From the NCBI RefSeq assembly GCF_030253575.1, contig NC_080569.1:11477001-11541000 (forward strand): a stretch of 64,000 nt of DNA. The letters run 5' to 3'. The notes under the pieces are model-generated. The model saw only the letters and a program-made list of their open reading frames with translations, ran no database searches and was not told the DNA's origin. Source of the DNA: Rhododendron vialii. Lineage: Eukaryota; Streptophyta; Magnoliopsida; Ericales; Ericaceae. Shown here piece after piece: positions 9,508-62,953 of the stretch; within the stretch, counting starts at the first letter, position 1; each line of letters begins with the position of its first letter. Both the position numbers and the translations under genes were made by a program.

Positions 9508-11631
9508 TCATTTCCCATGGTGCCCTTCCTCTTCCTCTTCAACTGCTTTTCCCTTCTTTTGTGTGTCATCCATCTCCCCACCAGTACCCTCTTCCCCTCT
9601 CTCTCTAAACTTCTTGTATATATCCCCCTTGTAAAATTCCCTGGTTCTCGCAACCAAGATCATTGAAGCAAGAGCCCCCAGAAAAGTAACCCCTGCCAGA
9701 ATCACAAAAGCAAGCCTGTAACAGTGAACACCGATGCAAATCAATTCCTTAACCGAAGATCGATTCATTCCTCTCTTGTCAAGATCCTTTAACGCCTCCA
9801 TATCGTAAAGAGGCCCTGTAACTTTCACATTTAGTATGTAGGAGCCGAGGGGACTAACCAGTTGGCCACAGTTGAACAACGTGGAGTAGTACTTTAGTCC
9901 AAAGAGCTCGGAGATGATGGCGAAAATCAGAGGCAATTGAGCGCCGAATGAGAATCCAATGATCACGGATGCGATGTAGACCGAACCGGGGATTGGGAAG
10001 GCGATGAAGAGGAGGCCGATGCAGGACAAGAAAAGGACCAGGGTCATCATAAGCGTCCGAGGAAACTTGTATTTAGAAAGGAGGGCTTCGGAAACGAATC
10101 CGGAGAAAATTCTCCCGAAATAATTCCATATGCTCAGTAGGGATACAAAGGTCTTGATAGTTTTTGTTGGGTATCCAAGGGATTCTCCGATTTGGCCCAA
10201 GTTGTCTACAGCAGTCAAGCTCGAGCCAAGCCCACAAAAGGTTGCGAAAAGCAGAATTAGCATGTCAGTGCTCAGAAGTGCTTGTAATATGGTGTAGTCC
10301 TCCCCCCTCTCAGGCTTATTGATGAAAATGTCTTGAAAACAAGTTGTTTTGGGCTTCTCTTCTAGCAGTGGTTTTGGTGTTGGTGTTGGCTCCAATATAT
10401 GTGAACTGGGACTCATGGGTTTTGCACCTTTTGGGTATTGGTTCCAGAGGACTAATTCTTCTCTAATGGCTATAAAAAGGGGAACAAAAAGCAAGGCACA
10501 GACCACGGTGACACTAAGAGCATAGCCTGCCTGTGGAAAAGTCACCAATTTCTGACATATCGTCATAACCATGAGAAACAAAGCCAGCACAATCGACACA
10601 TACAAGAACTGGTAAAATATTCTCAGCTCGTTCGGTTGCCGAACCACCTTCATCGGCCGGATTGTGTACACAAAAACCACCGATATCGCCGCGGGAAGCC
10701 ACCCGATCAGAAGAATCAAGGACTTGGAATCGTTTCCGTAGATAGCCAGATACACTTGGGTCATTATGGCTCCACTTAACCCCGTGAAACCCTTTAACAG
10801 GCCCAACATGATTCCCCTGCTTTCAGGGAAGTTTCTGACCGAAGTTACCAAAGCTCCGGTGTTGGCGAAGTTCTGGGAATTCGCTCCGATGCAGATGTAC
10901 ATACACATCTGCCAAACCTGTTGGAGGCAAAGATAATTTGACAAACTTATAAAATTAAACTAGAATTTCACATCCCTCATACTTCAAAACACTAATTACT
11001 TATAGGAATAACAAAATGTGACTCGTCGGTAATCCTGATTATAATTCAGGCATTACACCCATGTCAATGCCACATGATATTCCGGGAGTACTGGGCCAAT
11101 GCCACGAGCAATAAATAACTCACCACTGACTTATAATTCCCACTAACAATTATAAAAATGCATAACCAAATAATAAGAACTCTCCAAGTTTATTATTTCC
11201 AACAATACCTTCGGCTTGGCTATAAAATTTTACCTTACCCAAAAAAAAAAAACAAAAAACAATACCTTCGGCTTGGGGATTCTGCCGGTGACGGAGAGGA
11301 ATATCATGAAGTAGCCGAAGAAGTTCATGGCAGAGCCGATTAAGAGCACGACCCAGGTTGGTGTTACCTCGGCGATGAGGCCGGAGAGGACGCCGATGTT
11401 GGCGCCGAGGTCTTTGAAGAAACCGAGGAGGTTGAGGGTGGTTTGGTCGTATCCGAGGGAGTATTTTATCTCTTTGGAGTAAACTCCGAAGAGGTAGGTT
11501 GCCCCTGCTCCCGCCATGATTAGGAAGGATGCGAAGAGCGAGAACCACCGGCCGCGGACGACTTGGACAGCGAACTGGAACGACGGGTGGCCGCTGGCGG
11601 CGGCGGGGGTCAATGGTAATTCAGTAACCAT
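9508..11631 (-). CDS. Nodulin-like / NFD4-type major facilitator transporter
   Basis: Polytopic membrane protein with an N-terminal Nodulin-like domain and a C-terminal MFS half. Two exons on the minus strand, 11631-11266 and 10917-9508, join in phase 0 (KPK/VWQMC) to give 591 residues, normal for the family. Early residues [16 protein letters not shown] and [15 protein letters not shown], then [20 protein letters not shown], are family hallmarks. About twelve hydrophobic segments can be counted, split by a polar stretch after residue about 290. The tail is charged (EEEEEGHH). The substrate is not known from sequence. Intron 1 begins with a duplicated copy of the donor region, and a large foldback element lies about 80-130 bp upstream of the start codon. 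The closest remembered Arabidopsis relative by family and position is At2g28120. Confidence 0.92.
11203..11276. repeat. Duplicated splice-donor segment in MFS intron
   Basis: CAATACCTTCGGCTTGG occurs at 11260-11276, spanning the real exon 1/intron junction, and again at 11203-11219, 57 bp into the intron. The second copy carries the same minus-strand donor (AAG then GTATT). Between them are an A-rich run and an in-frame stop (11232-11230). Confidence 0.9.
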
Positions 11632-11710
11632 ATTTGGCGGTCCTAGTTTGCGAGGTGAAAGTTGAGAGAGAGAGAGTGTGTGTAATGATATGTTAAAGAC
11701 AAGAGCAGGA

Positions 11711-12480
11711 CCACGATTTCGCGGTGATCGTTTACCGCACGATTCTTGGGCTCATTCCAGGCTCCAAAAAATACAGAAAAATATTTATAAATTTTAAAAT
11801 AATATTTTATGGGTCTCCGTAAAAAATCAGTTATAACAGATATCGGTAGATATGTTTTTTGAATTTATAGGGACGAAACTGCAAAACTAAACAATTCCGT
11901 TCCTATGAATTCCAAAAAGAGTATTGCTATATGTACCGACCATGGGGAGGGAAAATGTACCGACGGCCGCCGGCGGGCCGTCTCCGGCCACCAGACGGCC
12001 GATCCGAACCGTCCAAAAATTCTAAAACAAAAAACCGATGGGGCACGCGCGGGAATAAACGGCATCCAAGGTGTGTAGGGTGCTTGATCCGAGCACCCAT
12101 TTTTCGTGTATATACACGTATATACATATATACACGAAAAATGGGTGCTCGGATCAAACACCCTACACACCTCAGATGCCATTGATTCTTGCGTAGGCCC
12201 CATCGGTTTTTTTTTTAGAAATTTTTGGACGGCTCGGATCGCCCGTCCGGTGGCCGGAGACGGCCCGCCGGTGGCCGTCGGTGCGTTTTCCCTCCCCCAT
12301 GGTCGGTACTCATAGGTTTTCTCTTCCGAAAAACATACCTACCAATATCCGTTGGAGCTGATTTTTTTACAGTGTCCCATAAAATATTATTTTAAAATTT
12401 ATGAATATTTTTCTGTATTTTTTCGAGGCCCACAATAGGCGCGCAATGGATGGTCACTGCATTTTCACGCGGGGTACCTA
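11711..12480. mobile_element. Large foldback transposon upstream of the MFS gene
   Basis: Two arms of about 370 bp are inverted copies. Outer arm blocks: the AAAATACAGAAAAATATT region at 11767-11860 against 12330-12421. Inner GC-rich blocks: 11931-12050 against 12195-12312. The centre, 12061-12180, is a nearly perfect palindrome around ACGTATATACAT. Short frames inside are mirror artefacts. The exact termini and target duplication are not resolved. With arms this similar, insertion or arm homogenisation should be fairly recent. Confidence 0.8.
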
Positions 12481-12960
12481 GACTTTCCATAAAGACAATA
12501 TCCAATTATTACTTGTAACCACGCTCACTTACACGCCAAAACACACATCCACACTTATATGAGTGATGGATCTCGCACACACTAGCCACCACACCCACTT
12601 ACACACTGAAACACACATCCATACTCACATTGTCACATGAGTGATGGGTCCCGCACAACTGCCAGATCCAATTAATACTCATAACTTTGGGTATTGTGTG
12701 TGTGTGTGTGTGTGTGTGTGTTTAAAGGGTCCATTATGCCTCTCCTTAATTAGCAATTATCTAGGTGAATTGGTATGTGAAATTACCCTCTTGCCCTCCT
12801 CCAAAACCGCGCCCACTTCCACACCGATACACACACCCACACTCACATGGGTGTTGGATTCCGCACATGCTGTCAGATCCAATTGTAGGTTCGTAAGACT
12901 CGTGGGAGAGTTGACATGTGAATTTACGTGAGCTAGAAGGGTGTAATTAGTTGATGATTA
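12481..12960. repeat. Diverged tandem repeats rich in CACACC/CTCACATGAG
   Basis: A unit of about 60-70 bp with CACCCACTTACACAC, ACTCACATGAGTG and (T/C)CCGCACA recurs near 12530, 12592 and 12810. Related copies appear at 13790-13980, beyond a GC-rich block. A (TG)n run lies at 12696-12721. No gene is visible. Confidence 0.6.
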
Positions 12961-13790
12961 GTGAAGGGAATGGAGGAGCAATTTTGTGGGGTGAGGGAAA
13001 AAGCTAGAGGTACAAAAGAGACGAAGGCAGCGTGACCGAATCTGATAGCTTTATCCAGATGGATCGGGTGAGGTCACGCTGAGAAGAATATTCTCCTACC
13101 TCAGAATCAGTGCTCACCACTTTCTCTCTCTAGAAAAAGCTGTCTTCGTCAAATCTGAGGGAATGTCAGGGGTATTTATAGTGCATCTGGGCCTTGGTCA
13201 GGTCTAGGACGGCGCTCCATAAAATCCCAACACATGTCCCTCTTGTACCTCCAGGTCACAGAGGAGACGTCGTCGCCCGCAAGTTGCCCCCGCGGGCGTG
13301 ACCCGTGACCCCTTTTTGCGACGAAACCTCCTTCCCAAGCCGCCAAGCCACAAAATCCTCCCCAATTTCTGCAGGAACAAGATCGCGACCCACGGCTATC
13401 ATTTCGTCCCGAAGTCTCCTTTCTGGTCCTACCTCACGTTCAGAGGGGGACTTTTGACACTCTTAAAGAAATCTTTCTCTCGACCTTGGAGTCTTTGGAT
13501 TAGCGCGGTCGCCACCATGACGGCTCTCGTGGGTTACTCTACTCACGGAGGCCTCCGTCTCTCCGCGAGACTCGCCGACTTCCGTGGGCCCCATCGGCAG
13601 TTACACGGGACCTTTTCCGCGGGACCCTCTACCACGCGTCGGTCCCTCGTTTCTTAATGTGTACGCTTCCCCATGATTGGGTACGTAGTCAGAGGTCTCG
13701 TTTTTTAGTCAAAGGTTTGACTATTGTCCTCCTGCCACGTGTCCGATGCTGGTTGGTTGGTTAGAAGGTCGTCTTTTGATTGATGGTCAA
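12961..13790. mobile_element. GC-rich block, possible LTR-type remnant
   Basis: This block differs in composition from its flanks, which carry related tandem repeats, so it looks inserted. It contains GTATTTATAG (about 13171-13180) and a CCACGTGTCC motif near 13735, features seen in some plant Gypsy LTRs. No protein domain, primer-binding site or clean terminal repeat was found, and the assignment is weak. Confidence 0.3.
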
Positions 13791-28533: not shown

Positions 28534-29037
28534 TTAGCATTCAAACCATGCATAGTCATAGGGAATCACGTATTTCAAGTGCATAGTCATAGGCATTGCT
28601 TTCAAGAATTCCTTCAAAAGCCACTCAAATGAATCACTTGATTCGCCGCTTAAGAATGCACACCCAAAAAGAATTGTTTGTCCCTGGTGATTAACCCTTA
28701 ATATAGGTGCAAAGATCAAAGAATATCGGTTTGTGTTGTATGTAATATCGAACACCACCACGTCCCCAAAATATTTGTATGACTTCCTAGAGGTTGCATC
28801 AGCCCAAAAACAATTAGTGATCCTATCTTGATCATCTCTCTCGAATGTAAACATAAAACCAGGATTCTTTTGTTGTTTCATTGCAAAATGCTCGTACAAC
28901 ATGGAGGCGTCATGTCCATCAAACGATTTCTTCCTATCCCTTTCATAGTTGTAAAGATCTCGTCTTAAAGATGGTGACAGTGAGAGTAGTTGTATATCAT
29001 CCAAAGACTGCATTCTAACCACCAAAAGACAAAACAA
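28534..29037 (-). pseudogene. Truncated FAR1-related / MULE transposase fragment
   Basis: FAR1/FRS proteins are transcription factors domesticated from Mutator-like transposases. This 167-codon minus-strand frame holds the segment before and within the start of the MULE domain: FERDDQDRITNCFWADATSR, then YKYFGDVVVFDITYNTNRY, whose FD(I/T)TY carries the first catalytic-site Asp. It continues to FGCAFLSGESSDSFEWLLKE and then stops where the family has the ITDQD block. Missing are the FAR1 DNA-binding domain, the rest of the transposase core and the SWIM finger. The end sits in a small local duplication (TGCATAGTCATAGG), which may have caused the break. Confidence 0.8.
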
Positions 29038-29804
29038 TAACTATTTTCGTAACTAAACTAAAAAAACAACATTCTATTTCCAATTCTTTGCTAACTACAC
29101 AATTTTTCTACACCAAAAAAAGAGAGATATACCTTGGTGGGGTGGTCGAAACAAGGGGGTTGGATTGACACTAACATTATCTTCTTGTTCTATTTCTGGC
29201 CACACAATAACAACAGCAAGCACCAATGGCTAGTCATCTACAGTAGCCCTTCGCATACGCACACACCAGGACATAAAAAAAAAATTACTTTTGATACAAA
29301 TTCAAAAGACATGTAAAGTTGGCATGTGTCCCTTTCATGCAAATATATACAATACACCACCACCCTTTTTTTTATTTATTTAAGTAGTACTAAAGAATTG
29401 GAAACCGATGAAGTACAAAATCTATTTTCTGCTATTGGAAACAGAACATCCAAATCAGTTTTTTGTATTTATTGCTATACAAAGTGATCAAATTTGACTT
29501 TGAACAGACAAGATGCATTACATTGAAAATGGACAAATTGGGTGATCTAACACTAGTCAAAGTGTTTAAATTTTACTAATTTCTGTATCAATTCAAAAAA
29601 GGGCAAAAAACCATATAATGCAAATATTTTTTGGGAAACTGTCAATGGATACTTGTGGAACTGCATATGAGGTAGTCCCTTCCACAGTTTTGGGGGGTTG
29701 AAATGTAGAATGTAGGGCAGAAAATAACCCTAGTCGAGGGTTTAACAAACATAACCATGACCACAATACACTCAAATAATCAGAAGGGAACATGTGCTAT
29801 TAAA
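29038..29804. other. Intergenic DNA, nothing recognised
   Basis: AT-rich sequence with short frames only. Confidence 0.4.
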
Positions 29805-34569: not shown

Positions 34570-35649
34570 ATGGATAATCAACGCAGTCCTCTTCTCACTT
34601 GGGCTTACTACTGCCAGGGGAAGGTAAAGACCCTTCTTTTTATGGATATAACTCACATATAGTAGTAGCTGCTATTGAGTCCTCAACTCTGCATTCGACC
34701 CCAATGGGATTTACTTCCTTTTTTGACTTAGAATTACCGAATGGGTTCCATTTCTTTCCAAAATCGAGACCTAATCTTTCGTGGGTTTTGCTCAAAACGA
34801 GCCAAGGCAATCTCTGTTCCTATGGTCATTTCTTACATTGTTTTCCTATTGGAAATACAAATTTGTTTCATTTCTTTGCACTTTGGGTCCTTTGGGAGCT
34901 AATTCTCGTGATGTTTTCAGAGCATGGATGAGCTGAGGCAATCTCTTCTGTTCACCACTCTGGAGCTGGAAACAACAAGGCTGAAAGCGGAGGAGGAAAT
35001 CAAAATCCGAGATGCCCAATTCACCCATCTCAAAAACCTCCTCTCCGAAGCCATCAGAGAGAGAGACGAAGCGCAAGACAAGTGCCATAGGCTCCTCTTC
35101 GAAAAACTCTTCCTCCAACAACAACAGCAGCAGCAGCAGCAACCAGCTCCGCTCTCCGGTGTATCGAGCATAGAAGACTTGGACGAACCCAGACGAGGCC
35201 TCGACTCCAACAACGGATTCTCCTCCTCCGATTGCGAAGAAAGCATCGTTTCATCGCCACCCCAATTGCCGCCGCCACCACCGCAGCCACCGTCAGTTGA
35301 AGAGCCTCCTATCCTTCCACTGGTGAGCGACAAACCCTTGCCGGAAAAAGGGAAGCTTTTGCAAGCGGTGATGAAAGCAGGGCCACTGCTTCAGACCCTG
35401 CTCCTGGCTGGTCCACTGCCGCAGTGGCGCCACCCTCCGCCGCCAATTGACTCCTACCAGATCCCCCCGCCGCCGGTGGCCATTCCGCCTCCGCCGCAAC
35501 TCCTCCACCAAGACTCCTTACTCAGCATTGGTACTTCTTGCAACAACATGGACAATTCTGTTAGCGTTAATAATAGGAAGAGAGGTTTTTGTGTACAAGG
35601 GTCTGATTCTCCGACAGAGGCCAAGTACCAGAGACTTGTTCTGCAATGA
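34570..35649 (+). CDS. DUF1635 family protein
   Basis: Plant-specific protein of unknown biochemical role. Exon 1 (34570-34623) encodes MDNQRSPLLTWAYYCQGK; exon 2 (34921-35649) continues SMDELRQSLLFTTLELETTR without frame change, total 260 residues. Family features: the N-terminal ELRQSLLFTTLELE block leading into a coiled coil (residues about 20-80), a polyQ run (about 84-92), then SSIEDLDEPRRGLDSNNGFS, the acidic SSSDCEESIVSSPP, and the signature KGKLLQAVMKAGPLLQTLLL followed by AGPLPQWRHPPPP. Pro-rich regions suggest an intrinsically flexible protein; a nuclear role is only a guess (basic NNRKRG near the end). The exon 1 start is chosen because family members have the short WAYYCQGK leader. 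The last codons and stop are copied in tandem just downstream. Positional match recalled: At2g28140. Confidence 0.9.
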
Positions 35650-42087: not shown

Positions 42088-45000
42088 TCAATCATCCTCA
42101 TTTTCCTCTTGATTATTCCTTTGGTTGTTTTTCTGGGCATTATACATCTCAGCAACCTGAATATAAGTGAGGATAAACAGTAAGGTAAAAGGAACTAGGG
42201 CCAACACAGAGTTAACAACTAGAACGGTGAAAAATCAATCGGATTCCAGAAAGAATGAACTGCTTCTAACCATATCAGATGATGAGGCCTGCTCTGGAGA
42301 CTTATCTTCCCGGACACGAAGCAAACGTGGAAATCGGAGAGAAATACCCTTTACCCAAAAAAGAAACTAAATAAGCTCGTGAAAAAAAAGATATTATGTC
42401 TATATGGAAATCAGCCTACATTGTGTTTTGGGCACAAAATGGGGAGTAGTAACAGTCTAGACTGTAGAGAAGCTTGATGGAACTAAAAGAAGATGACGAC
42501 TATAGCCACTAAGACTTGAGGCATTAGTGAGTTCAGCCATGTAAGAAAACATTAGGCCATCTCTGTGCTACGAATTACAAACACCTTCAAATATAAAATA
42601 AAATCTGTTGAACCTTATCAGAATCCACAATGCCAATCGCAGCACGATGAACGGGACTGATAGTCAAATCTGCAGCTTTCACCTCCCATACCTGGAAGAG
42701 AATAAAACCTAATATCTGTCACTCTAAAGGAATAAACAATCTTCCAGCACAATAAAACTGATACGGTCTCTCGTGTAGAAGAAAGAAATAAAAAGGCACA
42801 ATTTGGCAGTAACACGGTCAAAATAAGAGATCTATATAGCTTTTCTGGAGAACAGGATTTTAAATTGTGGTGCCAATTAAGTAGAAAATAAAGGTTTTCT
42901 AGACAAGAAAGAAAGTAGATACAACCAATTGGCAAAGAGCTTCAGTGAGGAAAAAAATCCCTCAAAAGGTCAATTTAGCAAGAAGACAAATGCCCCCAGA
43001 TTTTCCTTAATGCTTAAGGTATACTGAAAATTTTACGACTCCGTCGATGATTTTTCTAGTAACATGTTCCATGATAAAGAAATCATGGCTCTGGATTGAA
43101 ACAATATAACAATACACAAGCAGATTGATACACGAAAATAACATTGAAGAAGAAAGAAGTGAGACAATCATGGACTTAACAAGGTAATAAAAATCCAACC
43201 CTCCTTCGGCACTCCAAATCAAAAAATGAAAAATAAATAAAGAGTCACAAGATAACAAAAAGGAAGCATATTTAGATAAGATTCATGATTTTACCTCAGT
43301 GGGTTCAAACCAAACATCTGGATTTATTGAATCTCCGTAGCGATAGTATGCCTGAAAATGGCACGAATGGAAGAATTTTCATGCTAAATCACAAGTCTCA
43401 AAATATTCATCATCCCGCGATTTCCACCAGGATAAAAGAGAAAAGCAACGCAACCTTTGGTTTGGGAATAACTTTAGAACGAAGGCTGGCAGAACGCTCC
43501 TCAAGCACTGATTCAGAAAATCCAGTGCCTGCAAAAAAAAAAAAAATTTCCTGGCTGTCTAAGCATTTCGAATGATGGCATGTAGATTAAGTGACAGCAA
43601 TAAAAAATTCCCCCAGCATTTTTCATTCCCTTTGTTGTAGGTTTTTTTCCTCATTATCTTCTCAGGTTGTGTGCTCCCTTTTCTTTCGTCTGCGGGGAGG
43701 GGCAAGATGGAAGTGGTGTCAAGACATTACCATCTGACAAACTGAGCAGTCTTACCAATTTTGCATATGCTTTGAAATTCTTCATTGCTGCTGTCATAGC
43801 AAGCAAGCAGAAAGGCTCCATAAACACCTGTGGAAACCCATATAGCACATCAAAATAGTTCAGTTCCAATTGAGGCGAGAGTTGTGACTTGTGATAATCA
43901 GGTCACAAGGGATAATTGAAGCAGCTATAAAGTGAAGCCAATCTATGCAATCAATTGGTGAGAACCATCTATGTAGCACCTATGAGATGATTACCAGTAC
44001 GTTTCCCCCGGCCATGGAAAGCAGCAATAGGAACTAAATCTAGGGAGTCACCAATGCTGCAGAGCACAACTGATATTAGTACTCTTTAAAATAGTCAGAA
44101 AGAAAAAGAGAAGGGAGCATATGGTACCACTTACCTTTCCATATAGTCTTTCTTCAATTTTAGCCAGTTATGCGACCTTTTTGATGGCTCATATGTAGCA
44201 TCTTTACTCAATGTTTTGATAATCAAACCCTCAGAACTGAAAAATAAGATAAATCAATGGAAAAGATGACTACAGTATGATAAGACAAACATTAAAAAGC
44301 CACAGAAAACATGATCCCATGAGACCATTTCTATAACCTAGCAGAGTGGAATCTACAATTTTAATCAACTTAAACAAAATAAGTCATTTACGAGTTATCA
44401 AATTTAAAAGAACAACAGGGTACCAAGCTATCATAAACTCCGCTGATGCACTCAAACATTGACTTTCCATGTGATAGGTTGCATTCCTATACAATCTGCT
44501 ATGCCCAACTATGATGAATATGCCAACAAGGATCTACGATATATGTGCGATTCATGACTAATCAGTATTCAGTAACATGAATACTTGCCCTGCAGGTGGT
44601 GTCAGATAATTACCAAGTATCAACAGCAGCTTCAAGGAACTTCTGTATTTCTTCGAGATCATTTGATGTTATTGCAGTTGCAAACTGAAAATATCCAGGC
44701 TCTTCCTCGAATGACTTGTAAAGATGCTGCACAAACCAAGAGCCCAGAAGTATGAACATTATTGTCAACAACAAAATTCTGAACTTGCCAGAACATAGAT
44801 CTGAGAGAAGATGTTTCCATAATATCCAACACAAGTTAGAGACCCTATTCAAGAGAACTTCAGATGTGACACATTTAAGTTACGTTAAAATAAGACTTCT
44901 TTTGTATTCATACGACCCAATTACATAAGACAACCTAGTTAGCATCCTTTGTTCCAAGTTTTTGGAAATTTTCCAAGGTGTAGCCAGAGGAAAAGTTCTA

Positions 45001-48000
45001 CCCACATTAGAGTAAACAAGTTATTACAGAAAAGAAGGATGATAGATTTATTTCTAGAGCTTATCAACCACTTGTCACAGCAATACCAGGTGAGCACTTA
45101 AGATTGGCTGTCACAGTAAATTCTGATCTCATAGTCTAAAATCAGTACTTACAACGTAACACTTCAACAAAATTGTAAAGAAGAAGTTGCAAATTGTTTT
45201 CAGTGAAACATGACTTCAAAGCTATGGCAGGTGTCAGGGTAAGACCCTCAAGGGTTGGATGTGTTGGAACTTGGAAGCGATACTATTGCCTTTGGAATGA
45301 CAAGTCAAAGACAGTGAGAGGTGTCACGAGATGGAAATGACATGTTTACAATGTTCGTTAAAGGCTGCATCCAAGTTTGATTAGCTCTCTCCTATTGGGG
45401 CTAGCTCAGGGGGCCAAAGTCCTTGTTTGTCACCTAAGAAGCACGGTGGCTTGTCCGTGTCCAACAAACCTCGGATGCTCTCGGACACCTGTTTGATACT
45501 CTCTTTTTCGTGTCCATAATTAGAAAATGAAAATCTTAATTCGGACACTGCAACTTGCCCGACACTTGCTTGGCGTCTATGACTACAAAATAAATACATG
45601 ATCGACACTCCTTGGACACGTGCTAACATGTGACTCAAATAATCGAAATTTCACATATCACTATTATATAAAAAGTTTAAAAAATAGTATTCTTCAAATT
45701 TATCATATTCAATTAGAATCGAATTTGTTAAGGAATTCAATATTTTGAGTCTCATGTCAACTAGATTCTTCACAACTTGTATATTATCTATTATATAATT
45801 TGCAACGTGCACTTTAGGTGTATATACATAACAATATATTTTGATATTTACATACTTGAACATATCCTCAACATGTTTGTGTCCTACATTTTAGAAAAAT
45901 AACATATCTGTGTGTGCGCGTCTGTGTCATATGCTTGTCTCGTGTCCGCATCCATGCTTCTTAGTTCCTCACTAGGAGGTTGAGGGTTCTAAGCCACTGC
46001 CCCATGCTACAGCCTACAACGTACCAAAAAGGAAGTTCGACTCGCTCTCAACAGTGAGTAACGCGCAGAAGCCGAAGCAGAAGCAGAAGAAGGAGATGAA
46101 ATACAGATTTACCTCTCTACGAACATTAAGTTGCTCGTGCATAAGTGGTTGGCCATTAAGATACAAGATGTCAAAAGCAAAAATGCACACATCAACCTTT
46201 ATGTCGCTCAACACCACATTTTTCCGAGCCCGTGTACTGAGTATCTGCCATGCCAAAAAACAAAAATAAACAAAAACATCTTATGAAGACGTCTTCTCTA
46301 AAAGGGATCTATCCATGCACTCATAGAAGATATTACAGCACGTTCAGGGACTATGTTGTCCATAAAAAATGGAAATCAATGGATTGTGGACATTGCCCTA
46401 TAACAAGGAGATAAAACAAGCATGCAACAACTAAACTTGGAAACTCAACAAACAACAAAAGCTTAACAACTTTTAGTGACAGAATGATCAGTGATAATAT
46501 TGGTTGTGAAAGGAACAAATTTATAACCCCTAACATGTTGCACGACCTGTACACTTGACCATCTGAAAGGAATAACTATCCATTCCGGACGGTTATCGAA
46601 ATATATTCTTACATTGTGTGACTTGTGCAAAACTAACAAACACCATCATGATCTTAACCACAGTGAGGTCCTATACAATTGATTTGATCCTACATGCACT
46701 ATCAGGATGTTACATCCAAACATCAGTCTTAGCGTTCCTCTTGATCAACTTTTTGAGGATGCACTAACAATCTGCCAGAAATATGAATCCGTGCAAGTAT
46801 TACCAATTTAAAACATCAGAAGGAATAAATTTCTTCTTCTATCAGGCTTCAATAAGATACTTTCCATCGTCTTAATCTCCAACTAAGCTCGAGAGAAAAG
46901 GACTGCAAAAGGAAGAGTTAACAGGCCAAAGCCATTGAAAAGGAGTCCCAAAAGAGGAAACCCTTCGGATATCTTTTTTTTTTTTTTTTTGGGCACGGGG
47001 AAACTTGCTCCCAAGGAATACGTGTGACCAGGGATCAGGGTTCAATCTAAGTTCGATAAAAGAATTTCACGTTGCTTGCACCAGCACTACACCAATTCTA
47101 CACAAGCAATACAAAATAACTCACCAGCACTACATCAATTTTACACAAACACTAGAAAATAACTGTATTGGCAAACAAATCACCTGGAAGGGCATGATTC
47201 TCTTCTTCTCACGGTCATAAGCCACAATTTCACAATCCAGAACAAATGATGTTACAGATGACTTCTTTAATCTGCAACACAACCATAGACATTAGCTGAC
47301 TATCTTGACACTAAAATTCTGTAATCCTCAATATAGAGTCCAACTATAGTATTAGTGCATATTATGTTCTCACCTGCGTAAATAAAGCACTAAAAGGTTT
47401 TCTTCAATGCAGCCAACAATTTTATCACAGATTCAACTAAGAGACTAAGGCCCCGTTCCGCTTTCTCCCAAAACCTTCTTTTTCAAAAATAAGGTAATTT
47501 CAAATTCAAATATAACGAAAATGAAAAATAATCAATTTTTTTTGCACCGTTTAAAAGATCTCAATGAGATCTATCAAACAAGATCCATATTGATAGAAAA
47601 TTTATTTACGTAAACACATGATTTTTTTACCTTGAAATTACCTTCTTTTTCAAAAACTTCCTTTTTGGAAAAAGTGGAACGGCCTCTAACATAGCTGCCG
47701 CCAGCCATTCGATCCTCCCAAGGGGTAAGGGTTTTCCGAGCATGAAACGTATACTTGCATATTCGTCCATAGGTCAAATCGGATATGTAATTTTTGGCAC
47801 AATCATTGGAGACTTAAATGATGGATATGCAAGCATGATAATTTCGATGCTGTTCTATATCTCCATGAATTTAGGAACTTTTGCTTGCATTGTATTATTT
47901 GGTCTACGTACCGGAACTGACAAATTCGAGATTATGCAGGATTATAACGAAAGATCCTTTTTTGACTCTCTCCTGAAGTCATCCTCTTTTATTCTTTCAT

Positions 48001-51000
48001 CCGAGTTCCAAATTAGAAAATTCTAGTATAGAAATCAAACAGCATTTAGCAACTGGAACCAAAATATAAACAACTCTAATTAACAAGTCAGGTTATCAAT
48101 ACACACCACTCAATGGGGACCAATGAAAGACAAGATATGAAACAAATTGAAGCAAGTGCCAATGAAATGACAACTGCCATGACATGAAGAGTGTCCCTCT
48201 GTAGCTGCCCCACTGCTAACGTTTTGGGAATGATTGTAACTCGACAAAAATTGCAAATACGGCCTTTTTCATTCACCAACACAAAGCACCATCATAAAAA
48301 TCTAAATTAAAGGAGGGATGTTTGAATGGGCATAAACTACTACGTCTGTACGGGTTTTCAAGGAAAATGTTCTATCTTGGAATGAATATCCAATTCCATA
48401 AGATGCTACCCGGGGCTGCAATCTGAGAATTACCTCTAATGTGGTTTCAACTGTTTCATTGCCTGTCCAAAACAGGCAGCCATTGCAACCCCTCACTCCC
48501 AAGTAAATAAATAAATTCTTGTGGTACTACGCCACATTGAGCCAGCAACTGCCACCTCAACATAATAAACAACTCTTAGTCCCATCAAATAACAAATAAC
48601 TCCTCTCACATTCTCCCTTTTTGCTCACACAAGCAATATAATTCATAGCACACTGTTAGCAGCCAATACCCATAAAACGCTTCAAGACCTTTGATAAGTT
48701 GTAGATTGATGATGAAACAAATCCATGACTTAATAACACAAAGAACTCCAGAAACTATTGCAGATTCAGGTGGAAACAGCCAGGTAAAAATCAATCAGAT
48801 ATATTTAATCATTAAGTTCAAACACATCTAGACTACATTGTGCATATCAAAAAAATGTCAATGGACTCTCATACACCACCCTACAATCGAAAGAAGATAA
48901 ATCAACCATAAAAAAGCAGGACAACCTTGAAACTGCAACAACAACATCAGGAAACTTTCCAGTATTCCATTCAGCATTTCGACTGTATATCTCAACTGAA
49001 CCATTCTCTAGGTAATGTATCTGTGCATGATTAGAGTTAGCGACAAACAAACATACGACATTCAGCAAATAAGCAAAAGCACCTTTAACCAGATACAATT
49101 ACCTGAGCGCGTTCTCCATCATACTTGTATTCACATGTGAACTCCATATCCTGAAATTTATCCAAGATCTCAGACACCCCTTTAGTCGGTTTTGCCAACA
49201 TAGGTCCGATGGGGACGCCTGGTGTGAAACTACATGTCTTTGGAAGAGTCCATACGCCGCCAGTAAGAAGAGCAGGGACTATTTTATCATACACGGGTAT
49301 TACAGAATATACTTGCTTAACAATCTTCGCAGCCTGACAGATGCAATCGAAGGATTTACTACATCAGGATCCAAATGAAATCAACCAATAGCATCTATTC
49401 AGCATCCAAAAAATGAAAGTGTCAAGGCAGATAATGGTTAGAACGGTTGTGACAGGGAAGGTGACGGCTGGTGCGAGAACCATATTGGCAGGTAAAAGGA
49501 CTAGAGCCTGGAACCATTAACCAGGTGACACAACTTGCGTGTGGCACCACTGCCGTGTGTAATGACTTCCATTCTAAAACCATTTGCCAAGTGGAATGAA
49601 CTAAACCGAGATGGGCTGTGTTGTTTAGTGTCCTATTTTTCTCCAATTTAGGGATTGATCTTAGCAGATGAAATCAGATTTTGAGATCAGAAATCCAAAT
49701 TTGGATTGAATGAAATTGTGCAACCTAATTGCAAGCATCACCAAGACACCCCAGCAAGCATCCACTCCACAACCCAATGTCCTTGAATCTGAAGTCCAAT
49801 GATAAGAAATTGATTGAACCATTGCTACAAATTTGTGCATTCATACGGGATACATGTATATTTTCCAGTGACCTATAAGCATATAGTGACAAAGCCCAAT
49901 ATTGAAACTAAAGAGTGAACAAACCGTGGGAATTGCTGTAGACTATTCAAAGGACAGCATGACAAAGAATTTGGCGCCTGTCATAGACTATCTGACATCG
50001 CGCTGATGAGCAACATTAGACAAGTGTTATACAGGATGGCCGGCCAGTAAAGTGAAACAAAAAAAAGGGGGGGCTTCAATTTCATCAGGATGTATTACCA
50101 TTAATTCATACCACGGTGTTAAAGGAAATAAATAGATCTTCAAGTTTCAACCACGGGACAAAAAAAAACCCTGCTAACTCACTTCTTCAAGAGGGGAATC
50201 AATATGAGCAGGTGGTGAAGAATGTTTTTCAGCATACACAGCAGCTTGCCCCACTGCAGCTAAGAGGGTTTGCTCTGCCAAACCGATCCGCAATTTTGAC
50301 TGCACAAAGTATCTAAAGCAAGTTAATAACGGGAGAAAGGATCAAACACACAAAGATGATAGCGATACCACTACTAACCTGCAGTAGGCGAATAAGATAT
50401 TGAGGTTCACAATCAGTAGCTGCAACGACAAGACCCTTTATATGGTTTTTCTTCTTCTCTTGACTATCCTTACCCGATTCCTAAAAGGATTCGACAAAAA
50501 GGAATCAAATAAGTCACAGCATACGTACATAGTTGCTAAATTTTGTGATATTCTCAAAGGCCTTGTTTTATCCTCTCAAACATAGGCCCGACCAAAACAA
50601 TGCAATTAGAAGTAAGAATAGTCAAAATTTGATCTGTTAGTAGCTTTCTTATCATGAATTATATCAATATCAAATGCAACATAAGCTCAAGAAACAATAA
50701 TTTCAAAATGCAGATTTGAATGCAGTGGCACTTATTAGAAAAGCCATTTGAGCAATAGATGTAAATCAGATAGCAATAAGTAAATCTAGTCAACGGTTTT
50801 ATTTCCAACTTATAATCAAGTTTCAGACACTATCTGGACTAACATGATGTTAACATTATGCAAAGAGCATACCAGAAGAAAATTAGATCACCCATTTTGC
50901 ATTTCAGAGTAAGGATGAGGACAGAGTACCTTAGCAATAAGCCGAAATGTATCAAAAACCTTGGCAACTGTTAATGCTTCAGGTCTTCGCATCAACCCTT

Positions 51001-53636
51001 GAGACGAACGACTAGCTTTTGCAACGAGGCCCAAGTCTCCTAAGGCCTAATAGTCACAGAGGTTTAGATGCACATATAACTGTATAAGTATAATGTGCCA
51101 TTAGAATACTTGCGTAAGGAAAATGCTAACCATTACCCAATGGGTGGTGGTTAAGGTTCAAAAAATGTAATGAAATATGCAAAAAGAGAATAAGGAAACA
51201 TGAAATTATATTGGTAAATGTTAAAAGGGTATTAAAGTTGTAACTTTTTGCAATTATTAACATCTTAAAATAATAACCCAATCCATTAGGCAGTTGCTGC
51301 GGTTGTCAGCATAACCATTAAATTAAGACCCATAAGAGAGCAAAAAGCATGTCATATTCTTATTTAAATAACACAATGTCGGACACACACACACATGTTC
51401 TTCCTCATCCTTTTAAACTTCAAATCATAAATGGATCAATGTCCACCAATGCAGGCCGTACTTCTTCCTTAGGATGGAAACATGTAAGCACTTTGGGTGT
51501 AAAATATAGACAGCAATCAAGTTTGACAGTAAAAACCAAATGGTCCACCATGTAATGACTGCCACAGTAAGAAAGCAGCAGAAATTCCATTCCTGCCATA
51601 GGCTCGGAGCTAATAAGTAGCGGAATTCCAAGACAAACCTGTACTAGAATCCCCAAAGACATTTTCTAGCAGGACACTGGATTAACTTGACACAAACCCA
51701 TTGTTCATCACGAAGACCCCCCAATCGACCAAAAAGTACTATAATCTGAAGTGGTTAAAAAACCCTACACTTGAGTTCAAAATTAAGCATAAACTCCACA
51801 TCCATTCCATTGGGTGGACGGGATTTTTTCTGTGTTTTATGATCCTTCAAGCTCCTTGTGGAGTTGTGGTATTTAGGGATATGACACTAAAGAAAGAAAT
51901 TTGCAGTTTGAACAATTATGTAACCAAGTGTTTTGTCACTATCATATGGAAAAAACTCGTACATTTTGTCGCAAAGCCAAAGGAGAATATGAAGTCAGTT
52001 AAAGACCCAATCGGGGTATAAACGTCAAACAACAAACCAAATCTAGACTAACCCAAAGTCACATGTAGCATTTTCACAGAAATTCAAAACATCAAAAAAA
52101 CAGCCTATAATCTCATACTAAAAAACATCTAGATGTGAAGAACAGATGTAATGAACATCGAATCTTTACCTTACTTAAGCTTAGTCTCCGGCTGGATAGA
52201 TGTCGGTTACAAATGAAGGGATTTTCTGTTACCAATCAATGAAAGCGGTTCAGATCTAGATTTGAAAGTTCACCTCACATCGGGCATTGGGAAAATTATT
52301 CCATGTCCTTGAGGCACAACGTGGTGGTGCCCCAAGCCACACCACCACAACATACTTGTCCAAGACTAATAGCGGGAACCCCACATAACTGTGTGGTGTC
52401 GGAGGGGCCTAGGCACCACATGGCAATGCCTTAGGGGCACTATATAATCTCTAGGGCATTGGACATTGAGTCGAGCTATATCCTATTGGATTTGAAATAA
52501 CTATTAACTAGGAATGAGTTCAAATCCTTCATGTTAAGAATTGTATTTATTGACAGATTCGAATGAAATAATTCTATTCTACCTCTACTCAATCTTCCAC
52601 TCTAGTTTCACAAGTACCTTTATTATGGCTAAAGTTTTTGTTGAATTTGAACATCACATCCTTTCGTATCAAATCTACACATATCCAAAAGGAGCCATAT
52701 ATTGTTCCGAAGGGTTCATCAAACAATAAGTCTTGCTTTGATCTACAAACAAAATCTGCACAGCTCATGCAATGACATAAATGAGAAAACCCAAAGTAAA
52801 GCCATAGAACAATCAACTACAAAAACCTGATATTTGCTCTTAATTTGTGATTCTTTCGCCCCACAAGCTTCGGCAAGTGCCTTGATAATTGAAGCGTCTC
52901 CGATTCCAAGCTCCACTCCTTCATGTGCCGGCGCAACCTTATTCCCCAAAAGATAAACAACCGCAACCAAATCATCCGGAGTAGTCTCAATCACAGTCCT
53001 CAACAAATTACACACGATCTCTGTTATCGCAATCCGTCCCGACTCCTTGTCTATCGCGTCGAACGCCTTGGCGAGAAACAGGAATGGCACCCGCTCGCCG
53101 TCCTTCCAAAACGCAGCCGATTTCGGGTCGAAATCTTTCGGCTTCTTCTTCAGAAGAGCAACACTCTCATCAGCAGTAACCAAACCCAGCTTCGAATCAG
53201 GGTCTGATACACGCGGTTTCTTCACTTCCGATTTCTCCTCATTCGAATTAGGGTTTGGTTCGCCTGATGTGGGACCATTTGAGACCTGGGCCTCTTCTAA
53301 CGGTTTAGAAACATCGGAGCTTTTCTTGGGACTAATGCTTTGGGTGTTTTTAGGGTTTGAGTCTGGGGTTTTACGCTTCTTGGGGGAAGAAGATTGGGCT
53401 TGGGGTCTCTTCTTGGAGGCGGCGGCTCGTGCGCCGGACATGAGAGCGTCGAAGGCGGAGGGGCGAGAGGACATGGTTGTACTAGGTTTAGGGTTTGGAG
53501 AGAAAGGGGTTTTGAGGAGGGAGAAGGGTTTGGGCGGGAAGAGAGAGGAAATGAGAGGAGGGAGTACTCGTCGTGGAGAGAGGGTGAGGGTGAGACGAGG
53601 AGAGAGAAAGGTGTGGGCTACACATCCGAACATCAA
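42088..53636 (-). CDS. LIG1: DNA ligase 1 (ATP-dependent)
   Basis: ATP-dependent ligase that seals nicks in DNA replication and repair; plant LIG1 serves nucleus and mitochondria. Seventeen minus-strand exons join without frame error: 53636-52827, 51046-50930, 50480-50379, 50299-50183, 49333-49103, 49020-48926, 47271-47184, 46244-46113, 44726-44614, 44236-44135, 44056-43995, 43827-43756, 43528-43455, 43351-43295, 42691-42614, 42348-42271, 42156-42088. The product is 798 residues from the first Met, close to the about 790 of Arabidopsis LIG1. Order: presequence, nuclear N-terminus with KKRK, DNA-binding domain (about 170-400), adenylation motif [10 protein letters not shown] with nucleophile K452, [30 protein letters not shown] and KLKKDYM, then the OB fold and [17 protein letters not shown] replaces the usual R in NAERNTG; this position also varies elsewhere. 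A second in-frame Met (53474-53472, [11 protein letters not shown]) would give a 744-residue nuclear form. Confidence 0.96.
45434..45964. mobile_element. TIR element in LIG1 intron 8
   Basis: About 530 bp with ends CTAAGAAGCACGG and CCATGCTTCTTAG and further GTGTCC-rich subterminal inverted similarity. Flanks TTTGTCAC and TTCCTCAC match at 6 of 8 positions, consistent with an aged 8-bp target duplication (hAT or Mutator type). No transposase frame. Confidence 0.65.
47449..47686. mobile_element. Tourist/Harbinger-type MITE in LIG1 intron 6
   Basis: 238 bp with GGCCCCGTTCCGCTTT at the left and AAAGTGGAACGGCCTC at the right, flanked by TAA (47446-47448 and 47687-47689). Subterminal parts (CTTCTTTTTCAAAAA, GGTAATTTCAA) are also inverted. 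Related to the element at 36475-36735. Confidence 0.8.
47735..47985 (+). pseudogene. ndhB: Plastid ndhB fragment in LIG1 intron 6
   Basis: The plus strand encodes [19 protein letters not shown], then [20 protein letters not shown] and GLRTGTD, which is an internal part of the plastid NAD(P)H dehydrogenase subunit 2. It then drifts ([17 protein letters not shown]) where the plastid protein has NIRDYAGLYTKDPFLAL, indicating small indels. It is antisense to LIG1 and bordered by a MITE 50 bp upstream. It lacks a plastid gene's ends and cannot make a working subunit. Transfer may be direct from plastid DNA or through a plastid-derived piece in the mitochondrial genome. Confidence 0.9.
51047..52826 (-). 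other. LIG1 intron 1
   Basis: The 1.78-kb first intron has no recognised gene inside. Around 52270-52450 a less AT-rich stretch with repeated ACCACA/GGCAC motifs may be an old transposon, but no ends could be assigned. Confidence 0.5.

Positions 53637-57115: not shown

Positions 57116-57120
<5 letters not shown>

Positions 57121-57187
<67 letters not shown>
57121..57187 (+). repeat. (AG)n microsatellite
   Basis: An unbroken AG run of about 67 bp about 730 bp upstream of FIT. Charged or Ser/Leu frames crossing it are artefacts. Confidence 0.95.
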
Positions 57188-57189
<2 letters not shown>

Positions 57190-57312
57190 ACCAATCATAA
57201 CATTCGAAAATCACTGGTAATATATTTTATTCTCATAGAGTTAGATGAGGTGATAATGTTAAAATGAACGTTCTGATTCACAATGCCAATAAGCCTTATA
57301 ATATATAGGAAA

Positions 57313-57472
57313 TTTATAGGGGAGTGAGATTTTCACATTCTCCTACTTTAGAACCGCACTCTCATTTTTGTCTTTATTCATGCGAATTTACAACATTGCC
57401 CTTTAATGTTCTCACTTTTTGACATATTTAAGAGGGAGTGCGGTTATAAAGAAATGGAATGCGAAAATCACC
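57313..57472. mobile_element. Foldback MITE in the FIT promoter
   Basis: The left arm (GAGTGAGATTTTCACATTCT ... AGAACCGCACTCTC) pairs with the inverse right arm (GAGGGAGTGCGGTTATAAAG ... GCGAAAATCACCC). About 160 bp, centred roughly 520 bp upstream of the FIT start codon. Confidence 0.7.
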
Positions 57473-57860
57473 CATATCGAGTATTTATATGTCTTTTACT
57501 TAACCAATCTGTTTAATCACAAACTCATAAAAAACTCTCATCTAACATGTTTCAATTAGAGTTACACGTCCAAGTGATCTTGTGCACTGCTGTAATTTCT
57601 CCAAAAAAATTTCCCATTGTGACCATGAAGATAAAAAGTTTGAAATATAATCACGGAAGTCTCTATCTTAAGGAAAAGCCAAATTTATTAATCATCCCCT
57701 GCCAACGTATCCGTATATGATTGGTCCTCTATTCACGGCCAGTTATCTCGAGCTTAATATTCAATTCACGACCCATCAAAGTCAACTTCTTCCTAGTTCA
57801 ATGCGAACCTTTTAATGTGATTCCTTTCACATGGAGAATGATGTACGTTTTTACTACTAG

Positions 57861-57868
57861 TATATATA
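57861..57868 (+). promoter_or_regulatory. Probable TATA box of FIT
   Basis: TATATATA lies 53 bp before the FIT ATG, allowing a short 5' UTR. Position and sequence fit, but there is no direct evidence of the start site. Confidence 0.45.
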
Positions 57869-57913
57869 CGTGTTATATGTACTAGAATACGGTACAATAT
57901 TCGCGTATGTACA

Positions 57914-59442
57914 ATGGAGAGGGATACAAGTGGAAACCAACTTGGGCATATCATGGGTGACTTCAACCCTCTACTGGGACTGATGGATGAAACAAATTTC
58001 CTGCAGTTCATTGATATCATTAGAGGAGAAAGTAGCGATCCCGTTGCCAAGTTTTGTGCCAACTTTGACTGCGAGCACATTGGTGGCTGTTTGGTGGACA
58101 ACCAATTTGAGTCGTCAACCCAACTAAATCCATTTGATCATTTCCATACTGATCAATCCGTGTCCAACCATGATTCTGATCTGATCATCAACACAGTACT
58201 GCAGCTAGCCACGGATGCTGATGAAGAAGAGAACGACAACCACGAGGAATCTTCGACAACCACGACCACAATACCATCAACAAAGAGAAAAGGAGGTGAT
58301 AGGTCGAGAACTCTGGTCTCAGAGAGGCGGAGGAGAGGCCGGATGAAGGAAAAACTCTACGCGTTGCGTGCATTGGTTCCTAACATAACCAAGGTATACA
58401 TGCTTTATATATAAGACACTTTGTTTTTCTTTTACAATATAGGTGTCTCTTCCAGCACAAACATTCTTTTATGATATGACAGGGTATCATGTGCTATCTG
58501 TGCCATAATGTCGATGGTTGTCTTGTTACATTACTGATTGTGCTATAGACTCGAAATTTTTTGACAAAAATGTATTTCATCTGGATAGCACGTGGCAGCG
58601 CAACATTCATTTAGGTGGAGTTTGGGCTCCATTCAACATGAATTTGCACAGTGCCAACCATTGAATATGTTGGAATTTTTTTTGTTAGTCGACACTATTT
58701 TCAGAGAAATTAAGTTGATTTGTTAAACTGTGTCTCCAGATGGATAAAGCATCGATTGTTGGAGATGCCTTATTGTACTTGCAAGATTTGCAGACGCAGG
58801 CTAAGAAGCTAAGATCTGAGATAGCAGGACTCGAATCATCGTTGGGAGGAAGGGAGAAAAACCAACGAGGCATAGCTGGAAACCAGAAGAACACCCAATA
58901 TACGAATACCGACCATCCAATTTGCAAGAACATATTCCAGGTTAATAACTGATAGCTAGCTACTGTAATCATTTCTAGTCGATATGTGTGAATAACTTGT
59001 GCAATGCTTTCAAAAGTTAGAAATTCGAAATGCTAACCATAACGTTTTCCAATTTAGCTGGACATGTTTCAAGTAGAAGAAAGAGGATTTTACGCGAGAG
59101 TGGAATGCAATAGAGGCCGAGGAGTGGCACCATCACTCTACAGGGCTGTTGAGTCCCTCACCAGATTGAATGTTCCGAGCTCCAACTTGGGCACTCGAGC
59201 TGAGAGATTCATATTGACCTTTAATTTGAAGGTGAGCTCTCAACTTTTTTTTCCCTTCGTTTTCGGTTACTTATAATTTGAAACTTATGGTAATGTATTA
59301 TCAGTACTGATTTATTTCATGCCTGAAAATTAAACAGGTTAAAGAATGCGAGCCTGACACGAACTTGCAAAAGTTGAAGCTGGGGTTAACTGAGGCCTTG
59401 TTGAAACAAGGATTTGTATTTCAGACACAGGCATCTGCCTAA
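57914..59442 (+). CDS. FIT: FIT/FER-type bHLH transcription factor (iron-deficiency response)
   Basis: Nuclear bHLH factor that in Arabidopsis (FIT, bHLH29) and tomato (FER) drives root iron-uptake genes as heterodimers with Ib bHLH proteins. Exons 57914-58393, 58740-58940, 59058-59231 and 59338-59442 give 319 residues; FIT has 318. Family marks: N-terminal TNFLQFIDIIRGE and NFDCEHIGGCLVDNQF, an acidic/Thr-rich linker, then DRSRTLVSERRRRGRMKEKL (residues 129-148, with E137 and R141 for E-box contact). Helix-loop-helix continues as YALRALVPNITKMDKASIVG and DALLYLQDLQTQAKKL. The C-terminal domain has FQVEERGFYARVECNRGRGV. The intron positions, one inside the HLH before MDKAS, fit the family. 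The frame is intact. The upstream 800 bp contain a foldback MITE and a long AG run that may influence expression. CSD2 follows 1.9 kb downstream on the same strand. Confidence 0.94.
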
Positions 59443-61371
59443 TATCTTCTCATCAACCATATATATGTGTTTCACAGTATCTCCTTTACTCGCTCCGAAA
59501 TGGAAAAATGATCTACCGTATGTAACAGTCATATATATATGTAAATAGTTTTTTTTTTGTAAAATCATTAGAAACTCTCAAGTCTCTCACAGTGTCATGT
59601 AGCCACAAATTGGATGTATATGCAAGAAGATGCATACAAGTAAAGTCTCTCACAGTGTGCACGGGCAGATTCAAATGTAACTCGACTAATGAAGGACCGA
59701 TCTCACCGTCCGCTAAGAGGCTAAATTAAAAGCCTGAGTTTGTCTCGTGTGAACTGAAGTACAAGAGTGGATAACACCTCTTACTCTGTCTATAGTTAGG
59801 GATGGATTAGTAACTGACACAGAATATTTCACAAGAAATAAAATAACCCCAAGATTTAATATGTGATTGCAGATCAGAACAAATTAATCATTTCTTGATC
59901 AGATAATTTAAGCAACAAGTTTTTGCGGATGCTATAATCACAAACGAACCAAGGATTTTGTTATTCTTTTAGATGTTCCAAATAATGTGATGTCTCGATT
60001 AGTGGGAGATGTTGTATTTGCTCATGTTTTTCCACTTCAGTTATAAAAATAAAAAATAAAAAAATAAAAAAACAGAGGTAAAAATTGCGAATCGAACATA
60101 AGGAGAGACAATGATGAGACTGTACATCCTAAATTGGAATGGAAGATGGCCAACCGGTAGAGAAATATTTTGTTTTTTTTGTATCATCCACTCTTTTTTT
60201 CCCCTTCTTATACGTATTTTTTAAACTTCTTTTAGCTTTGGATAAAAATTTCATAGGCCGATTCTTTTGAACAAGAGAAATTCACAGAAGTAAAATTAAT
60301 TAAAAAACTAACAAACCACTAAAGATGAAAATAAGTCAAAACTTTGTTTTTTTGAAACTTATTTATGCATTTGTTAAACCTATTGAAGAGTTCAAACATT
60401 TTATCTTTTCTGCCCCATCTTATCCAATCATAAGGTTCTTTTTTCCTCCTAACACTGAAAAAAGTCATTAAAACTAGAAACAACTACGAAAAATATTCCA
60501 AGTTCATTATGGAATTATTCATGTTCTGTCTTACGCTTTGTTTGGAACCTATGAAAAAAAGGGAGAGAAAATAGAAAATAATTACAACAAAGTAAAATGC
60601 AAGAAAAAGATTTGTTATTATTAATAAAATATTACTTTCTTTGCTGTTAAAAAAATACTGACAATTTTCCTATTTTTTCTTAACCAAACGATGGATCTTC
60701 TCTTCCCTTTTTATCACGAGTTTCAAACAAACTCTTACACCCTTTTAGAAATAGAAAAATAAAATAAAAATTACACCATTTTTGAATTAAGTTTTTTTTT
60801 TTTGTCAATATAATATAGTAGAATTAGTTGTTAGTGATTACCACAAAGGGCGACCTCCTCTTCATAGGACTTAAACCCACAATCTCTCACTCTCAAAGAA
60901 GAGCTACATGACCGCTTAATCTAAGTTTAAATTAAGTTTTTTTTTGGTTGCCAAAATGGTACAAATTTTATTGAGGAATAATACTCCATTTCAAAGAAAT
61001 CAATGACATTTATCCAACCGCAAAGGATCTAATGATTATTTAGGAGATTTAGTTTTCCAAGTATGAATACCGGAACCTCTCAATCCACCGGCGGATGTGT
61101 GAGCCACACCATTTGCCGATCTCCGAATAAGCATAAATAATGAAAGAAAAAAGTTTCTAATTTTCCACATCTTTCTCTTCTTTTTCCTGCTACCAAACAA
61201 ACCCTCCAGTTCTTTTCTGGTCTCCCCGAGTTCAAACAAACTGGGCCAGATCGAAGCAGCCAAGAACTATACTATACCAGTAACATAAACTGTGGAATAG
61301 CCGAGAAGCTATCCCTCAAACATTATCCCATCCAAGCAGGTCAAATCCAAGCCGCAATTCCATTTCCAGCC
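59443..61371. other. FIT-CSD2 intergenic region
   Basis: Contains the FIT 3' UTR and the CSD2 promoter. Around 60535-60740 a GTTTGGAACC start and GAGTTTCAAACAAAC end, with AAAGGGAGAGAAAA and TCTTCCCTTTTT inside, look like a worn MITE. At about 60800-60930 there is a SINE-like or other dispersed block. No gene is seen. Confidence 0.4.
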
Positions 61372-62953
61372 ATGGCCCCTCCCACACTCCTCCTCTCTTC
61401 CACCTCATCTCACCTTCTCCTCTCAAACCCTAACAACACCAACCCATCTCTCCGCTCTAATTCCTTCTCCAGCCTCTCTCTCAAACTCACTCGCAAATCC
61501 CCCAAGTCCCTCACCGTCGCCGCCGCCGCCAAGAAGGCCGTCGCCGTCCTCAAGGGCACCTCCTCCGTCGAAGGGGTCGTCACCCTCACCCAGGGAGACG
61601 ATGGTCTGCTCTCTTTTTCGACCTTCACATAGAATTGTATACAGAATTTTCTTGGTTTGTGTTTGATTGATTAGAAATTGAGAATTGTGGAATGGGTTTT
61701 TATTTTTTGGTTGATAGGTCCAACGACTGTGAATGTTCGCATTACCGGACTCACTCCGGGGCCTCATGGGTTCCATCTTGTGAGTATTTCTTGATAGAGA
61801 ACTACTTTCGTTTTATTGCATATAGTTTCATTTGTGATTTTTTTTTTTTTGTGAGTGGCGAAATTTTTTTTATTCATCTCGAGGATAAAAAGAACGAAAT
61901 TAGTACAATAGGAAAAGATAAGCATTGAGGGAGCCTCAGAGAGTGCACAACACTCTCCTATCGCTGCTACTCGCAAAATCATCTAGTTGCATTTGTAGAT
62001 AACTAGTGAAGTTTTATTGCCCTTAGTACTGCTTACCCAATAGAGTAGTACTACTTCAGGTTAATGGAATCTATTTGCATTTTCAGATAATTAGTGTGAA
62101 GTTATATTGTGCTTACTTGTGTTTCTTCTTTTAATGTTTTGTAGCATGAGTACGGAGATACCACAAATGGGTGTATTTCGACAGGTTAGATTTGATTTTA
62201 TTTGAGGCCTAAACCAGTAGAAGTGTTGGTGATTACTGTATTGGATTAATTGTAACTTTTAATTTTGTAGTTGTTTGGTTTGTAATTTCATTTTTTCCTC
62301 CATTGGTTATGTGATAGGAGCACACTTCAATCCTAATAACATGACACATGGTGCTCCTGCGGATGAAATCCGTCATGCGGGTGACCTGGGAAACATAGTT
62401 GCCAATGCCGATGGTAATTACAATTCACAGGTTTTCCTACAAGTTTTGTATGATTTGTGAGACCCAGCAATATTTGTTTGACTGTTTTTGGTTACATGGT
62501 CTAATTCAGGGGTGGCAGAGGCAACAATCGTCGATAGCCAGGTATGGATTGTAAATGATTTTGTGTGCCTGCACTCAACATACTTTTTAAGGCTCAACTT
62601 CTTCCTTGGCTATTGGTCCATTTTTTACTTTTATCTATTGGGCTGATTTGTGCAGATACCACTTAGTGGACCTAATGCAGTCATCGGCAGAGCCTTGGTA
62701 GTTCATGAGCTTGAGGATGACCTTGGAAAAGGTAAATCATAATTCGTTAAACTGATTTCAGTATGTAGTTTTACTTGAACTTCCTTTTGTTAGCAAAGAA
62801 GTTTATACTCACTACAATGCACATAAATGTTTGATTTTTCTTCCGATTATGATTTCTATTGTGTGCAATCTTTAATCTCCTTTGGTTTTTGATTTCCAGG
62901 TGGTCACGAGCTAAGCCTTACCACTGGCAATGCAGGTGGACGACTGGCATGTG
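61372..62953 (+). CDS. CSD2: Chloroplast Cu/Zn superoxide dismutase, last exon outside window
   Basis: Converts superoxide to oxygen and hydrogen peroxide in the plastid stroma. Seven exons are visible: 61372-61603, 61718-61779, 62145-62184, 62318-62413, 62510-62541, 62656-62731 and 62900-62953, encoding 197 complete codons plus one base. The first about 52 residues, Ser/Leu-rich and ending near TVAAAAKK, are a plastid transit peptide; the mature enzyme begins at about [12 protein letters not shown]. All metal ligands are present: H97, H99, H114, H122, H131, D134 and H171. So are the disulfide pair C108/C197 and catalytic R194. Unusual but tolerable: HEYGD for HEFGD, AHF for PHF, HELED for HELKD. 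The final exon (family ending close to VIGLTPL) is not found after 62953 and should lie past the right edge, after an intron of more than 1 kb. Recalled family regulation by copper through miR398 cannot be tested here. Confidence 0.93.

Follow-up and report, generated by a model that had tools for sequence, protein, structure and literature searches.

We analysed a window of 64,000 nt from the Rhododendron vialii genome (C13:11477001-11541000; assembly of 532,647,506 bases in 13 contigs). Gene models were assembled from splice sites, and families were assigned by a Pfam scan of ten window ORFs and one further ORF. The analysis was extended by 100 kb on either side, where 19 ORFs were picked by eye and Pfam-scanned (10 + 9). 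The window carries six host genes with open frames, which encode an XTH, a nodulin-like MFS transporter, a DUF1635 protein, DNA ligase 1 (LIG1), a FIT-type bHLH protein and a CSD2-like superoxide dismutase (Table 1).

Table 1. Genes and other features of the window (window coordinates)
Feature	Position	Strand	Structure and matches
XTH, putatively XTH31/32-like (group III-A)	4187..7530	+	exons 4187-4382, 5118-5218, 5290-5507, 7167-7530; 292 aa; open frame
Nodulin-like MFS transporter	9508..11631	-	exons 11631-11266, 10917-9508; 591 aa; open frame; PF06813, PF23262
Inverted repeat	11944..12297		171-base arms, 88% complementary
MULE transposase-like fragment	28534..29040		
DUF1635	34570..35649	+	exons 34570-34623, 34921-35649; open frame; PF07795, E 7.2e-88
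DNA ligase 1 (LIG1)	42088..53633	-	17 exons; 805 aa from first ATG, 752 aa from second; PF04675, PF01068
Plastid ndhB fragment	47622..48026	+	ORF residues 39-103 match chloroplast NDH subunit 2 chains
FIT-type bHLH	57914..59442	+	four exons; 319 aa; open frame
Plastid-type Cu/Zn-SOD (CSD2-like)	61372..64000	+	seven exons up to 62953; last exon past window end

The XTH gene, which lies outside the interval 9508-62953 covered by the sequence-only reading of this DNA, matched PF00722 and PF06955, and its closest PDB chain was 2uwa, with 483 bits vs 208 bits for 1umz. We take 2uwa to be the nasturtium NXG and 1umz the poplar XET, and XTH group III-A to contain XTH31/32. By these scores the product is far nearer the nasturtium chain than the poplar one, and is putatively XTH31/32-like. 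Direct repeats of at least 120 bases were absent from the window, and two inverted pairs were present. The inverted repeat listed in Table 1 lies 5′ of the MFS gene; similar translated stretches were seen by eye in both flanks, and the element is perhaps a short mobile one. The MULE transposase-like fragment, recognised by Pfam, is located between the MFS and DUF1635 genes.

The 752-aa form of LIG1 aligned over residues 28-748 with residues 23-751 of human LIG1 (E 7.2e-204), thus covering the full catalytic length; the junction between donor 42614 and acceptor 42366 is approximate and leaves a few extra residues that are absent from human LIG1. An intron of LIG1 (48926 to 47271) contains the ndhB fragment, which runs antisense to the gene and represents a nuclear insertion of plastid DNA. 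With regard to the bHLH gene, the exon 1 ORF scored under the Pfam HLH cut-off (19.5 vs 20.7 bits), and we take the gene to be a putative FIT (bHLH29) from its likeness to the Arabidopsis protein. PMC7071715 tabulates no fewer than eight closely numbered FIT-like bHLH29 genes on chromosome 8 of Citrus grandis (Cg8g018990-Cg8g019240), apparently a tandem expansion, compared with one FIT gene in the R. vialii window. Within the CSD2 gene, the fourth exon carries a PF00080 match at C13:11539314-11539439 (window 62314-62439), while the first-exon ORF gave no Pfam match. A candidate last exon lies 1.1 kb past the window end, at about position 65105 by window numbering.

The window and its flanks (264 kb) contain 15 named units, a count that leaves out retroelement pieces and unnamed ORFs; 5 of the 19 flank ORFs had no Pfam family, or only one far under cut-off. 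Upstream, we found a GH29 alpha-fucosidase (PF01120), a methyltransferase-like gene whose Pfam score was under cut-off, and pieces of a serine carboxypeptidase (S10). The carboxypeptidase is represented by three matching ORFs, within a stretch of C13 that extends from some 60 kb to some 29 kb before the window. The same stretch holds a pair of nearly identical ORFs, near -57 and -37 kb, the first of them without a Pfam match; by eye they look like the carboxypeptidase first exon, and the copies are probably a local tandem expansion. The downstream flank contains a ZAT-type C2H2 gene with two C2H2_6 fingers, a 2OG-Fe(II) oxygenase, a STOP-type C2H2 gene, a MYB-repeat gene, a second MFS gene that is PHT4-like by eye, and a gene with Rieske and PaO pieces, which we take to be PAO. 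About 68 kb separate the DUF1635 gene from the STOP-type gene, whose Pfam match fits STOP2 and STOP1 alike.

Three of the window genes have paralogues elsewhere in the R. vialii genome. The nearest XTH paralogue lies on the minus strand of C3 (70% identity, 179 bits), and the other 35 of the 37 XTH matches (self aside) reached 92 bits at most. The nearest DUF1635 paralogue is also on the minus strand of C3 (51% identity), 3.3 Mb away from the XTH paralogue. Another copy of CSD2, whose exons are laid out in the same way, was located at C1:39804000-39806200; when 40 protein pieces of the segment were used as queries against the 60 kb around it, CSD2 was the sole match. The own-genome paralogues form only a loose duplicate and no tidy block. 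About 20 kb from the C1 copy of CSD2 there is, by eye, a TIP1-type aquaporin; in Arabidopsis, TIP1;1 is near XTH32. The presence of XTH, DUF1635 and CSD2 paralogues fits the Rhododendron genome for which PMC6907397 describes Ad-beta and At-gamma duplications, and which is alike in its 13 chromosomes and about 532 Mb. The two CSD2 genes differ by a dS of 0.98, calculated over only 65 codons (of seven matching pieces five were entered, two were dropped for unequal length and three were used). This value falls between the mean dS published for two Rhododendron species for Ad-beta (0.61-0.67) and gamma (1.65-1.71; PMC6907397) and decides nothing on the origin of the pair.

We then compared the gene order with that of Arabidopsis. 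While gene content and order in R. vialii come from the sequence itself, the Arabidopsis side consists of locus numbers, most of them printed in passages of published papers, and these numbers were taken as chromosome order by convention. Putative counterparts were assigned by family and locus number. The sequence-only reading had claimed that nodulin-like MFS, DUF1635, FIT and CSD2 occur in this order, with the MFS gene on the minus strand, and that At2g28120, At2g28140, At2g28160 and At2g28190 belong to the same families, in the same order. Order and strand are borne out: all four genes are found so between 9508 and 62953, with the last CSD2 exon beyond. As for the families, we take At2g28120 to belong to the nodulin-like MFS family PF06813 and At2g28140 to be DUF1635; no mention of At2g28140 was found in the literature searched. 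Published names fit the claim for the other three loci, since FIT is At2g28160 (PMC7071715), CSD2 is At2g28190, a Cu-Zn SOD, and At2g28120 is a 'nodulin family protein' (PMC3519560). For At2g28120, however, the literature is ambiguous as to family, as the running text of PMC3519560 assigns it to MtN21.

The chromosome 2-type order reaches past these four genes. The upstream alpha-fucosidase corresponds to FUC1 (At2g28100), the only GH29 gene of Arabidopsis according to PMC4052742, and the downstream ZAT-type finger to ZAT5 (At2g28200; PMC12702618). Where a collinear block calls for four or more homologous genes in one order, the comparison gives six families, all in the same order and within eleven locus steps. 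This extent, the counterpart of the sole Arabidopsis GH29 gene on the expected side, and the scarcity of DUF1635, with matches at four places in the whole R. vialii genome (self included), make it extremely improbable that the match is a gene-family coincidence, even though MFS, bHLH and SOD are all multi-member families and the comparison is based on families instead of best matches. In our judgement, four families (six with the flanks) in one order are not due to chance.

XTH and LIG1 had been placed outside the chromosome 2 block, as marks of rearrangement or differential loss. If only the four-gene block were shared with chromosome 2, the two genes would have been brought in by rearrangement or transposition, a reading that agrees with their lack of At2g281xx numbers and with the distance between the XTH and DUF1635 paralogues on C3, which indicates that rearrangement occurs around such genes. 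Against it stands the neighbourhood of LIG1 in Arabidopsis. LIG1 is At1g08130 (PMC9916837), one locus number from CHX6A (At1g08140). In a published tree, CHX6A is paired as a close relative with CHX7 (At2g28170; PMC12346106), and the number of CHX7 falls between those of FIT and CSD2. The segment on which LIG1 lies in Arabidopsis thus seems to be a sister of the one with FIT and CSD2, so that the position of LIG1 between DUF1635 and FIT in R. vialii needs no rearrangement. DNA polymerase epsilon (At1g08260 and At2g27120) also pairs chromosome 1 with the chromosome 2 region, and LBD1 (At1g07900) with LBD11 (At2g28500) forms a further pair.

Chromosomes 3 and 5 provide the remaining counterparts. 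The tree also pairs At5g22900 and At3g44900 as close relatives, and antiporter genes are present in all four Arabidopsis segments (At1g08140/08150, At2g28170/28180, At3g44900-44930 and At5g22900/22910; PMC12346106). On chromosome 5, STOP2 is At5g22890 (PMC10321353) and At5g22930 is a DUF1635 gene (PMC6812778); on chromosome 3, PAO is At3g44880 (PMC4517869), XTH31 is At3g44990 (PMC3969325), SCPL48 is At3g45010 (PMC5594490), and At3g44940 is given without a name in PMC3832635. The DUF1635-STOP order of R. vialii parallels At5g22930-22890. We take At3g44940 to be DUF1635, and on that footing the SCPL-XTH-DUF1635-PAO order of R. vialii parallels At3g45010-44990-44940-44880. Although XTH32 (At2g36870) had been named as the counterpart of the XTH gene, its relative XTH31 is the more informative locus, as it stands by number between PAO and SCPL48, the same arrangement of families as in R. 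vialii. On the CHX6A-CHX7 pairing and the PAO-XTH31-SCPL48 order, we rejected XTH and LIG1 as insertions, which we regard as unlikely. The better reading is that both genes belong to the same ancestral block and were retained on other Arabidopsis copies; the earlier suggestion of differential loss fits, whereas rearrangement is unneeded.

At the level of family and locus number, the remaining genes lie on the other Arabidopsis segments in kept order. Counterparts in the four segments exist for 12 of the 15 named units, if the methyltransferase is matched with At1g08125, presumably its counterpart; we know of none for the 2OG-Fe(II) oxygenase, the MYB-repeat gene and the second MFS gene. A CHX gene, the common marker of the four Arabidopsis segments, was not seen by eye in the R. 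vialii ORF lists, Pfam having been applied to chosen ORFs. Neither FRA8 nor SOSEKI3, which we take to be further Arabidopsis neighbours of the block, was seen by eye in these lists.

Taken together, we consider it probable (about 0.8) that the window belongs to an ancestral eudicot gene neighbourhood that has been conserved, and that is present here as one segment interleaving about four Arabidopsis segments after duplications and loss. The neighbourhood would still be a single segment in an Ericales-type genome. On the way to Arabidopsis, two more rounds of whole-genome duplication (beta and alpha, both of which belong to the Brassicales) would have copied this segment, and the copies would then have lost different genes. 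The chromosome 2 copy (At2g28100-28200) would have kept FUC1, MFS, DUF1635, FIT, CSD2 and ZAT5; the chromosome 1 copy, LIG1 beside CHX6A; the chromosome 3 copy (At3g44880-45010), PAO, a putative DUF1635, XTH31 and SCPL48; and the chromosome 5 copy (At5g22890-22930), STOP2 and DUF1635. Two Brassicales duplications followed by gene loss would account for one segment here interleaving about four there. From this arrangement we infer that the genes are orthologous, that the two duplications gave rise to the four segments, and that genes were lost instead of moved. As a counterweight, the XTH, ZAT, STOP, SCPL, MFS and Rieske/PaO families are multi-member, which makes single assignments uncertain; the CHX gene missing from the ORF lists read by eye and the loose own-genome duplicate also speak against the reading.

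A different cause for the conserved neighbourhood would be selection on joint action, FIT in the iron response and CSD2 as a copper/zinc SOD, and not descent alone. FIT and CSD2 are indeed close: about 1.9 kb separate them in R. vialii, and three locus steps do so in Arabidopsis. Nevertheless, the ligase, fucosidase, XTH and carboxypeptidase have no known common function, and the block members appear freely separated in Arabidopsis, which makes this cause very unlikely. Equally doubtful, as judged from gene positions, is the idea that selection for coordinated regulation of iron and copper/zinc might have kept FIT and CSD2 tightly linked, within some 264 kb where the gene order would still be close to that of the eudicot ancestor.

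An ancestral segment shared out among Arabidopsis copies resembles the fractionated homoeologous segments of Arabidopsis, when these are set beside a relative that lacks the alpha and beta duplications, in that one segment interleaves several, each in kept order, with no difference in kind. No title on this particular segment was among the literature matches listed, and a search on fractionation vs grape gave no match. The finding is fairly well supported and of a well-known kind, ordinary conserved gene order, of which this instance is a tidy one. It cautions that calling a gene 'out of place' is unsafe from one Arabidopsis segment alone. It also supports the naming of FIT, CSD2, LIG1 and XTH31/32 in R. 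vialii by position plus sequence, and offers a clean worked example of an ancestral segment divided among Arabidopsis copies following whole-genome duplication.
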